Shown here: one piece after another, positions 2,994 through 31,461 of the stretch | Position numbering within the stretch: the first letter of the stretch is position 1 | Layout: the number at the start of each line of letters is the position of its first letter | Source: Deltaproteobacteria bacterium | GTDB lineage: Bacteria; Desulfobacterota; Desulfarculia; Adiutricales; JAFDHD01 | Length of the DNA: 38,733 nt | Direction of reading: 5' to 3' | NCBI GenBank assembly: GCA_019308995.1 | Contig: JAFDHD010000016.1 | Coordinates: 1 to 38,733 of the forward strand | Translations under genes and position numbers: made by a program | The notes under the pieces: generated by a model | What the model saw: the letters and a program-made list of their open reading frames with translations, nothing else | Database searches by the model: none | What the model was told of the DNA's origin: nothing

Positions 2994-4309
2994 CAGACTT
3001 CAGATGATGACGCCTGCTGGGAAGTGCGCGGTATGAGCAGGAAGAGGACTCCAGAGAGAACAATCATTCCTATGAAGATATAAAAAGCCAGGTTGTAGCT
3101 CTGTGAAACATCATAGAGATATCCGGCAAAAACCGGCGCGGCTACTGTACCTACCATGGCCATGGTCATTGTTATCCCCGCAATGGTAGCATAATTCTTT
3201 CGACCAAACAGGTCCGCGCGCAAGGCAATAGTCAGGGGGATGACCCCTCCGTATCCCAGTCCAAATACGACAACGAATAGGTACAACAATACTATAGTAT
3301 TGGCATTGATAAAGATGAATATCCCCACGCCTTGAAGCATGCAAAGAAGAAACAGGATCATTCTTTTTTCAAATCGGTCACCGAGCCAGCCGAACACAAA
3401 TCTGCCCGGCACACTCATGAGCACCATCAAGCCCAATACCTTAGAGGCCGCCTGATAGGGAATACCGATATCCGTTAAGTGCGGAATTTGATGTACCACG
3501 ATGGCGCTCAGAATGCATGATCTTAACATCATGGAAGCTGAATAGACCCAGAAGGCGCGAGTCCTGATCGCATCCCCTACGGTAAAATTAACTTCTTCAG
3601 GAATGGTGCTGCCGACTGAAACTCCTTTTGCTTTCTGGACAGCCTCATCGAGCGAGTCTGCCTTACTTCCGGGTTCGCCGTCCGGTACCAGCCCCATTTC
3701 CTCCGGGGTGCTCCTGATAATCAAACTCAGAGGCAGAGGAATGGCCAATGTCGCCACTCCAATAATGACCGCAGCTGAGCGCCAGCCATACTGGACAATG
3801 AGCCAGGCTATCAGTGGCACGAATATGGCCCCGCCAATGCCATTGCCCGTATATAAAAAAGAAAAGGCACGCCCCCTTTTTTTCACAAACCATTTAGCCA
3901 CCGCTGCCCCGGTGCCATGGATGTAGCCCAGATTATAGCCTAAGGATAAGGTCAGACCGAAAATCAGATATAGGCTCAATGGACTCCTGACCTGCGATAG
4001 CAGTATGAACCCGACACCGGCTATCAATATACCAGTGAATAAAATCTTCCGGGCTCCAAATTTATCAATGAGCCAGCCGACAATAGGTCCCTCGAGTCCA
4101 CCTTCCAATCGGGACAAAGAATAGACGCCAGACATGAGCGTCCTGGACCACCCAAACTCGACGATCATGGGGTTAAAAAATGTGCTGAATCCGTAAAAAA
4201 AGGTCCCAACGCCAAAGGCATTGATGAAGAAGCTTACCGCTACGATCCGCCAGCCATAAAAAAGCTTATCGCTCCTGGCTTTCACCCGACTGACAATGTT
4301 TATGCTCAA
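2990..4309 (-). CDS. Major facilitator superfamily transporter (oxalate/formate antiporter-like)
   Basis: Twelve-helix inner-membrane secondary transporter, probably for a carboxylate. The opening FYGWRIVAVSFF, the WSR element before helix 2 and the loop GWLIDKFGARKI between helices 2 and 3 are typical of the OFA/monocarboxylate branch. A second GWLGDRFEKR loop marks the second half. The reading frame is open upstream to 4375, but only the TTG at 4309 has a ribosome site (GGGAG, 8 bases upstream), so I place the start there (439 residues). It is divergent from the GntR regulator gene, with a 420-bp AT-rich, palindrome-rich spacer between them, so the regulator may control it. The substrate is unknown. 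Confidence 0.82.
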   Translation of the reverse strand: MSINIVSRVKARSDKLFYGWRIVAVSFFINAFGVGTFFYGFSTFFNPMIVEFGWSRTLMSGVYSLSRLEGGLEGPIVGWLIDKFGARKILFTGILIAGVGFILLSQVRSPLSLYLIFGLTLSLGYNLGYIHGTGAAVAKWFVKKRGRAFSFLYTGNGIGGAIFVPLIAWLIVQYGWRSAAVIIGVATLAIPLPLSLIIRSTPEEMGLVPDGEPGSKADSLDEAVQKAKGVSVGSTIPEEVNFTVGDAIRTRAFWVYSASMMLRSCILSAIVVHQIPHLTDIGIPYQAASKVLGLMVLMSVPGRFVFGWLGDRFEKRMILFLLCMLQGVGIFIFINANTIVLLYLFVVVFGLGYGGVIPLTIALRADLFGRKNYATIAGITMTMAMVGTVAAPVFAGYLYDVSQSYNLAFYIFIGMIVLSGVLFLLIPRTSQQASSSEVC

Positions 4310-29759: not shown

Positions 29760-30266
29760 TTAAGTGAAATAATTGTCGTCGATATAATGAAAGACATCAC
29801 AAGTTCGTAATAGGTGGTCAGACTTTTTTCCTTTAAATGCATAATTTTCAACAATTTTTCCTATTTCCTGTACCCTGTTAATAACCTCAGAAAAATCTCC
29901 GTCACCACTAATCAAGGCCGCTACGTCATATGTGTCATTTTGAGCCAATAACAACATGTCTAGTGCTAAAAAAATATCAGCACCTTTTTCTCTCTGATTT
30001 CCCTTTGGTCCAGCCAAGCGTCCCAATCTGAGTTTAAAATAAGGTTTTCTTTCAAGGCGATCAAGGAAAGAAAGTTGTTGATTATAGCTCTTTATGCTTG
30101 AATCGGTTGGCCTCACGGTGTAATAATAAATTCTCATTAATTCTCTATTAGCTACTATTTTCTCTATGAATTTATCTATATCGACTTTATAAAAATCCTG
30201 TTTAAGACCACCTGTAACACCATGGAAGAAATTGCTACCGTCAATAAAAATCATAACTCTTTGCAT
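29760..30266 (-). CDS. NYN-domain (PIN-like) putative ribonuclease, LabA/DUF88 family
   Basis: 168-residue protein with the NYN/PIN-like nuclease fold. Acidic active-site residues are visible: Asp9 and Asn12 in MIFIDGSNFF, Asp97 and Asp103 in EKGADIFLALDMLL, and Asp122/Asp124 in ISGDGDFSEVI. Family members are metal-dependent RNases or DNA-binding regulators. The gene is visibly AT-rich compared with its neighbours and sits in a repeat-bounded islet, which suggests acquisition. A G-rich ribosome site lies a few bases before the ATG. Directly upstream is a terminator-like hairpin and a structured leader with its own promoter, an arrangement seen in type III toxin-antitoxin loci. A toxin role is inference. 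Confidence 0.85.
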   Translation of the reverse strand: MQRVMIFIDGSNFFHGVTGGLKQDFYKVDIDKFIEKIVANRELMRIYYYTVRPTDSSIKSYNQQLSFLDRLERKPYFKLRLGRLAGPKGNQREKGADIFLALDMLLLAQNDTYDVAALISGDGDFSEVINRVQEIGKIVENYAFKGKKSDHLLRTCDVFHYIDDNYFT

Positions 30267-30281
30267 TGTGACCCCCCCTTT

Positions 30282-30313
30282 AAAAAAATAGGGAACCTGC
30301 GTGGGTTCCCTAT
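30282..30313 (-). terminator. Intrinsic terminator/attenuator before the NYN gene
   Basis: ATAGGGAACC (30288-30297) and GGTTCCCTAT (30304-30313) form a perfect 10-bp stem with a 6-base loop. On the - strand a run of seven T residues follows (30288-30282). It lies between the leader promoter and the NYN ribosome site, so it would end a short RNA or attenuate the gene. Confidence 0.75.
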
Positions 30314-30325
30314 GCGTCTTTCAGT

Positions 30326-30351
30326 CCTACATACTTACATGAGTATGTAGG
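30326..30351 (-). repeat. Perfect hairpin in the NYN leader
   Basis: CCTACATACT and AGTATGTAGG form a perfect 10-bp inverted repeat around TACATG. It is the first of two tandem hairpins in the leader. Confidence 0.8.
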
Positions 30352-30403
30352 GCCTCTTTAATGCTGACTACTATCATGAGTAACCAGGGTGGCTTCATTA
30401 ATA

Positions 30404-30431
30404 ATTATCGGCATTATTTTAAAAAAGTCAA
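30404..30431 (-). promoter_or_regulatory. Promoter of the NYN leader
   Basis: On the - strand, TTGACT (30431-30426), a 16-base AT-rich spacer and GATAAT (30409-30404) give 5 of 6 matches in each box. The predicted start is near 30397, about 130 bases before the NYN ATG. Confidence 0.65.
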
Positions 30432-30590: not shown

Positions 30591-30664
30591 TGCCCCCCAT
30601 CGAGATTCGAACTCGGACCACCAATTTAGCAGATTGGAACTCTATCCAGTTGAGTTACGGGGGC
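30591..30664 (-). tRNA. tRNA-like gene, anticodon GCT (serine codons AGC/AGT), aberrant
   Basis: On the - strand the sequence folds as a tRNA: D stem ACTC/GAGT, loop with G18 G19, anticodon arm CCAAT-CTGCTAA-ATTGG, and T loop TTCGAAT. Anticodon GCT reads serine AGC/AGT, but the variable loop is only 4-5 bases, whereas bacterial tRNA-Ser has a long variable arm. The body (GGATAGAG D arm, A20, A73) is arginine-like. The 3' acceptor strand has six G residues against five C, and the T stem has a C-A mismatch, so one base is extra. It may be a degenerate gene, a chimera or a sequencing slip. No CCA is encoded. A hairpin with a T run ends just before its 5' end. Confidence 0.6.
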
Positions 30665-30796: not shown

Positions 30797-31461
30797 TCAT
30801 TGACAGGATTCATTAACAAGAGAAGTGATTTCTTCTAATGTCCAAACATGATCAGACACTTTGGCTTCCATGGCTGGCGTGACTCTGAGTGTCCGATGAA
30901 TCCTGCTAAAATTATAATACATAAAGTGAAGGCTCACAGCATGGGCCAGATTTTCGACCTTTTTTGAAAAAGCATTTGTTAGGCGCGTGAAGCGTCTCAT
31001 GCTCATGCGGTTGTAAGGTTTTGTCTCTCCACATAGCTTGTTGAGATATGTTTCGCTTCGGGGTTGCCCTCAATGGCTTTACTGTCAGCCCCTATACATT
31101 GTGAGGGGCTATATCTTTTTTGACCTTCACTGTCGTTTCCATATATCTTAATTAGCATCGAATAATCTATGTCCGCCCCAAAAGCTTCTTCAATAGCCTC
31201 TAAATAGGGCTTGTGTCTGTCTGTGGTCAATTGAACCCTATAGGCAAGACGCGAAGCCAAGTCTTTAATGAATATGCTGGCTGTTGCAAAATCCCGCCCA
31301 CCAACAAGCCAAGAGGGGACAAGTTTTGTGCCAGCACAAATAGCTGTCCAGGTCCATATGTCACCATATCCAAATTGACCCTGCTTCTCTTGAGGAACAT
31401 TTTTTGCCTTGGAATAACAGAAAGACCAGATTTCATTGCATTGGATACGCTTGCACGACAA
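30797..31461 (-). pseudogene. IS1-type transposase, 5'-truncated and frameshifted
   Basis: DDE transposase of the IS1-like group: KRIQCNEIWSFCYSKAKNVP, then DIWTWTAICAGTKLVPSWLVGGRD, QLTTDRHKPYLEA, STSYVERQNLT, and in another frame MSMRRFTRLTNAFSKKVENL through TPAMEAKVSDHVW. The frame changes at 31003-31006, right after the catalytic Glu segment YVERQNLT, where about one base is missing compared with the family. The N-terminal helix-turn-helix part (some 70-90 residues) is absent; the gene breaks off 3 bases from repeat copy B. Canonical terminal inverted repeats were not identified. It is a dead insertion-sequence fragment. Confidence 0.85.

Follow-up and report, generated by a model that had tools for sequence, protein, structure and literature searches.

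In the window, that is, the whole 38,733-nucleotide stretch of DNA analysed here, a gene for an NYN-domain nuclease stands behind a predicted structured RNA built of repeated hairpins, and we are confident that protein and RNA represent a genuine two-component module. The first-pass annotation had raised the idea of a new pairing of a nuclease with an RNA. This idea is supported in part: the pair recurs on prophage contigs as well as in bacteria and DPANN archaea. Rfam holds no family for the RNA; at gathering threshold, neither the window leader nor the RNAs of 15 relatives gave an Rfam match.

The locus in the window

Promoter, repeat units, hairpin, terminator, ribosome site and NYN reading frame were all recovered on the - strand where the first-pass annotation had placed them. 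The sigma-70-type promoter TTGACT-16-GATAAT (30404–30431; 10/12 matches) is followed by a predicted structured RNA of about 116 nt with three hairpins (30282–30397), whose transcription start was deduced from the -10 box. Two repeat units had been described before. Both are present and share TACTCATG, which forms their apical parts, but the first is itself a hairpin of 9 bp (30364–30387, loop CAUGAU; fold and sequence), and the terminator constitutes a third unit at the regular spacing of ca. 37 nt kept by all three hairpins. Hairpin 2 (30326–30351) consists of 10 bp with the loop CAUGUA according to the fold, and hairpin 3, the intrinsic terminator, occupies 30282–30313 (hairpin 30313–30288) with 10 bp and seven T residues; they align with hairpins 1 and 2, respectively, of the two-hairpin covariance model R2 (see below). 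A G-rich ribosome-binding region (GGGGGGG, 30267–30281) then leads to the nuclease gene (29760–30266). Between the window terminator and this gene a promoter scan found no second promoter, and NYN would therefore be expressed there by terminator read-through.

Promoters and terminators are by themselves at chance level in the window (six promoters found versus 4.3 expected from shuffles, three terminators versus 2.5), as would suit a nuclease gene that just happens to be preceded by an ordinary promoter, accidental hairpins and a terminator. However, the whole leader folds with -38.1 kcal/mol (z -3.94; 0/200 shuffles as good) and contains a match to R2 at 30279–30366, and for the family such a coincidence is contradicted by cross-phylum conservation with covariation. 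We consider an accidental arrangement hardly credible.

The NYN protein

The product of 168 residues matches NYN (PF01936, E 1.2e-27) as its sole Pfam family. The acidic residues D9, D97, D122 and D124 are invariant across 17 relatives, and Foldseek with the AlphaFold2 model (pLDDT 94.6) retrieved 2qip (VPA0982) and, as second-best, the NYN domain of MARF1 (5yaa). Profile, fold and acidic active-site residues thus identify the protein as an NYN nuclease. The PADLOC candidate-defence model HEC-09 also matches it (E 7.5e-19). Profile match and fold are hence shared with HEC-09 and the LabA-like NYN nucleases (2qip, VPA0982), for neither of which we found an RNA partner described; the only paper found to name HEC-09 assigns it no function (PMC12447246). 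Regnase/MCPIP1 and MARF1 have the NYN fold in common with the window protein but differ from the module as eukaryotic RNases with no linked RNA gene.

When the single window protein served as query, no matches were obtained in genome or viral contigs; an alignment query instead recovered NYN relatives from GTDB and viral contigs, and plasmid and phage records yielded distant NYNs only. The relatives, drawn from the window's phylum, GTDB contigs, viral contigs and DPANN archaea, were inspected both visually and with a script.

The RNA family and its covariation

The suggestion that NYN homologues might share a conserved leader, detectable with a covariance model, was confirmed, as a covarying repeated RNA with a terminator is found in the window's clade. 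Its consensus comprises one to three units of the form AAUUAACUCC-CCC..UUG-loop-CAA..GGG, the terminator usually being the last. The RNA alignments were produced by MAFFT without use of structure. Among single hairpins (27–28 distinct units), 90.9% of the cells are paired, a percentage biased upward because the hairpins were chosen beforehand for folding, and 62 changes on both sides of a pair were counted, which none of 500 shuffles matched; slid controls of this alignment gave at most 14. The two-hairpin RNAs of 16 loci, with the same bias in the paired fraction, are paired in 92.3% of the cells, 16 of their 22 pairs vary on both sides, and 84 cells carry both-sided changes (0/500 shuffles). 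One U-A pair per hairpin is invariant in all 16. The repeat pitch is 38 nt in L156, and L109 contains two near-identical units of 35 nt; units inside the same RNA often show little sequence similarity to one another. A Coatesbacteria genome (G431:C1) carries two module copies (L109 and L252, at 2088635 and 2519129, about 430 kb apart) with apparently identical leaders.

Conservation in the RNA covers the hairpin and the AU-rich sequence flanking it. This pattern bears on the strongest rival to a restraining role of the RNA, namely that it is a working partner, either matured by NYN or serving within a ribonucleoprotein for defence as its guide, scaffold or activator. Linkage and conservation would fit such a partner equally well, a CRISPR-associated NYN protein has been proposed to trim crRNAs (PMC11346440), and the HEC-09 match likewise points to candidate defence. 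Against it, no variable guide-like segment was seen in the aligned RNAs, and their variation is mostly compensatory. We regard a working partner as a real, if minor, possibility.

Linkage of the RNA to NYN genes

Genome-wide linkage is independent of the choice of hairpins for folding. R1, a single-hairpin model, gave 33 matches in 99 loci, 31 of which lie in loci outside its training set; 27 of these 31 are at most 200 nt from an NYN ORF, where 8% would be expected (p 6e-26, with relatedness left out of account). All matches with E<0.05 in 18 whole genomes adjoin an NYN gene, many of these being training loci, and in 237 DPANN genomes the same applies to 7/7 matches with E<=0.01. Among 41 genomes closely related to that of the window, the best match, taken as background, reached 29.2 bits, and the genome scans with the hairpin model gave no match of at least 29.3 bits away from an NYN gene. 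A crude hairpin scan was positive for 33/135 NYN upstream regions versus 8/151 control genes (p 3e-6). The R1 or R2 matches away from NYN that were fetched proved to be single terminators or sequence of an unrelated kind, and no NYN ORF lies in their vicinity; an apparent orphan RNA in L112 is actually located where a second NYN gene begins.

The window RNA is a divergent one and was not recognised by R1. R2, constructed from 16 loci with the window excluded, loses it under default filters; in an unfiltered search of the whole window the leader is the only significant match (30279–30366, 21.7 bits, E 7.2e-5, correct strand), aligned across hairpin 2, the linker and the terminator, and the next best place scores 9 bits (E 1.9). 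As chance matches of R2 in whole genomes reach up to 28.8 bits, the 21.7 bits would not suffice alone. Together with the adjoining NYN gene, the shared plan and the 5' flank UUAAUGAAGCC of hairpin 1, which is identical in the Syntrophaceae RNA L020, they make membership of the window RNA convincing. The tree places the window NYN closest to the viral-contig NYNs L153, L127 and L157, all with co-directional RNA (45% identity to L157), on a long branch whose placement is not firmly supported.

Distribution and orientation of the RNA

The tree comprises 128 NYN proteins, for 62 of which a hairpin RNA adjoining the gene was scored, partly by eye. No RNA accompanies the genes of large branches from Chloroflexota and Aquificota, close relatives included. 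The RNA therefore follows part of the NYN tree and not every NYN gene, and an NYN enzyme of this type need not be accompanied by it. In archaea, the majority of copies contain just one hairpin.

Several individual loci are worth recording. L002, which belongs to the same genus as the window, has a more distantly related NYN gene that is broken by TAA yet retains the leader with promoter, hairpin and terminator; repeated CCCCGCACCCGCGGGG hairpins lie beside the interrupted gene. L019, on a contig of a metagenome-assembled genome (MAG) of the phylum Desulfobacterota (G051:C152), and the DPANN archaeon L200 have the same 30-nt hairpin and sister NYN genes, which reflects either cross-domain transfer or MAG contamination. 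A DPANN subgroup (L205, L206, L208, L209, L210, L243 and L120) carries an extra, longer conserved RNA element (ccttaagtcttcggacatnccgcaa) 5' of the hairpin, and in the archaeal L090 hairpin RNAs apparently flank the NYN gene on both sides (2917–2951, + strand, and 3536–3584, - strand).

Relative to the gene, the RNA of these 62 loci is co-directional in 50, convergent downstream in nine (L021, L048, L080, L106, L108, L156, L204, L242 and L250) and divergent upstream in three (L043, L118 and L214). A TTGAC promoter precedes the first hairpin in many bacterial relatives, and the RNA has its own in all six of the bacterial convergent or divergent loci read in detail (L021, L043, L048, L108, L118 and L156). 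These data are pertinent to an autoregulatory leader, in which the NYN level would be set by NYN binding or cutting hairpins of the 5' UTR of its own gene, or by attenuation of transcription there. Such a leader is compatible with the window and with most relatives, where a co-directional RNA and its terminator precede NYN, and Regnase/MCPIP1-type NYN nucleases act on stem-loops in mRNAs (PMC4958271). Yet an RNA that is convergent or divergent, as in 12/62 loci, and has its own promoter, as in the six, is not part of an NYN leader there. The simple attenuator that the first-pass annotation had named as the alternative is thereby contradicted and, in its pure form, excluded for the family; autoregulation in the wider sense appears unlikely. 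The convergent and divergent copies rather require an RNA that acts in trans.

Some convergent copies touch or overlap the NYN 3' end, and the conserved CUCC could pair with G-rich ribosome sites, as might be expected if the RNA blocked translation by pairing with the NYN mRNA in the manner of type I antitoxins. Cognate duplexes in 18 loci are, however, no stronger than swapped ones (p 0.41 for the start region, p 0.27 for the ORF). Without an excess of cognate pairing in these loci the module does not qualify as a type I toxin-antitoxin system, and we judge an antisense mechanism very unlikely.

Mobile and prophage setting

The viral copies reside in lysogeny or integration regions, with Cro/CI-type repressors at L127, L153, L156 and L157; further neighbours are a BRO/KilAC antirepressor (L156), a tyrosine integrase (L126), a serine recombinase (L157) and a HigBA-like pair (L153). 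The window module is placed between a tRNA gene directly upstream (30592–30664, - strand) and a rubrerythrin-like gene, close to transposase remains; at 30797–31461 (- strand), two adjoining ORFs resemble the parts of a disrupted transposase, and the larger one has no Pfam match. A tRNA gene was also found near the module L027 and, by eye, near L033 and L126, which suggests an integration hot spot. In L020, an integrative element is marked by an int-alpA RNA (RF02996, 188–259) that lies about 1.2 kb before the module on its upstream side.

Discussion

The first-pass annotation compared the locus to a type III toxin-antitoxin system. The comparison holds for the order of parts but does not extend to the components, as a ToxN-like nuclease is absent and the repeats are predicted to fold as plain hairpins. 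In ToxIN, CptIN, TenpIN and AbiQ, as in the window, a promoter is followed by short repeats arranged in tandem (about 35 nt each), then by an intrinsic terminator and the gene of an RNase, and these systems share with the NYN modules a mobile and prophage setting. The succession of repeat RNA, terminator and nuclease gene applies to the window and most relatives, some others being single-unit or otherwise oriented. In contrast to type III systems, the nuclease has an NYN/PIN-like fold and does not belong to the ToxN/AbiQ family, the RNA may be convergent or divergent, and DPANN archaea are included. To our knowledge, all type III systems described so far contain a ToxN-type nuclease.

Covariation supports hairpins in the present RNAs; the type III RNA repeats fold as pseudoknots, with a repeat length of 34–36 nt in ToxIN (PMC5086642). 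With a nuclease that is not ToxN-like and no demonstrated pseudoknot, the module is by definition not type III; by analogy, it may nevertheless work like one. The CRISPR-associated NYN protein of Bacteroides fragilis, for which crRNA trimming has been proposed (PMC11346440), resembles the module in that an NYN ribonuclease is linked to a non-coding RNA in the context of defence, but its target is crRNA, its locus is type III CRISPR and it lacks a hairpin-repeat RNA gene. A search of the literature found no NYN system with a type III or RNA antitoxin or a non-coding RNA leader, which is weak evidence since it covered open-licence papers only.

By analogy to type III systems, whose toxins are harmful on their own, process the antitoxin RNA and are neutralised by it, we lean slightly towards a role of the RNA in restraining the NYN nuclease, and propose the following scenario, in which transcription, binding, inhibition, toxicity and a role in defence are all inferred. 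A constitutive-looking promoter would produce a short repeated-hairpin RNA ended by the intrinsic terminator, and occasional read-through would give the mRNA of the NYN ribonuclease, so that the RNA would be in excess over the protein. NYN would then bind its own hairpin units, consisting of an AU-rich single strand, CUCC and the hairpin with the conserved U-A pair, possibly cut the precursor between units, and be held inactive by the bound units. If the supply of RNA failed, for example upon phage infection or loss of the element, free NYN might cut cellular or phage RNA. More broadly, and with somewhat less than even confidence, we tentatively consider the modules a cross-domain class in which an NYN nuclease is combined with a hairpin-repeat RNA. 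They would have spread through bacteria and DPANN archaea by way of prophages and mobile elements and would act as an RNA-neutralised toxin or in phage defence, using a nuclease fold that type III systems are not known to contain.

The consensus of the RNA allows others to find and test further members. If the proposal is true, a second, unrelated nuclease is paired with a conserved RNA, which would point to more than one origin of RNA-controlled nucleases. It would also offer a candidate mechanism for the unexplained PADLOC HEC-09 and phage NYN genes, and would place an RNA-controlled nuclease system in DPANN archaea.
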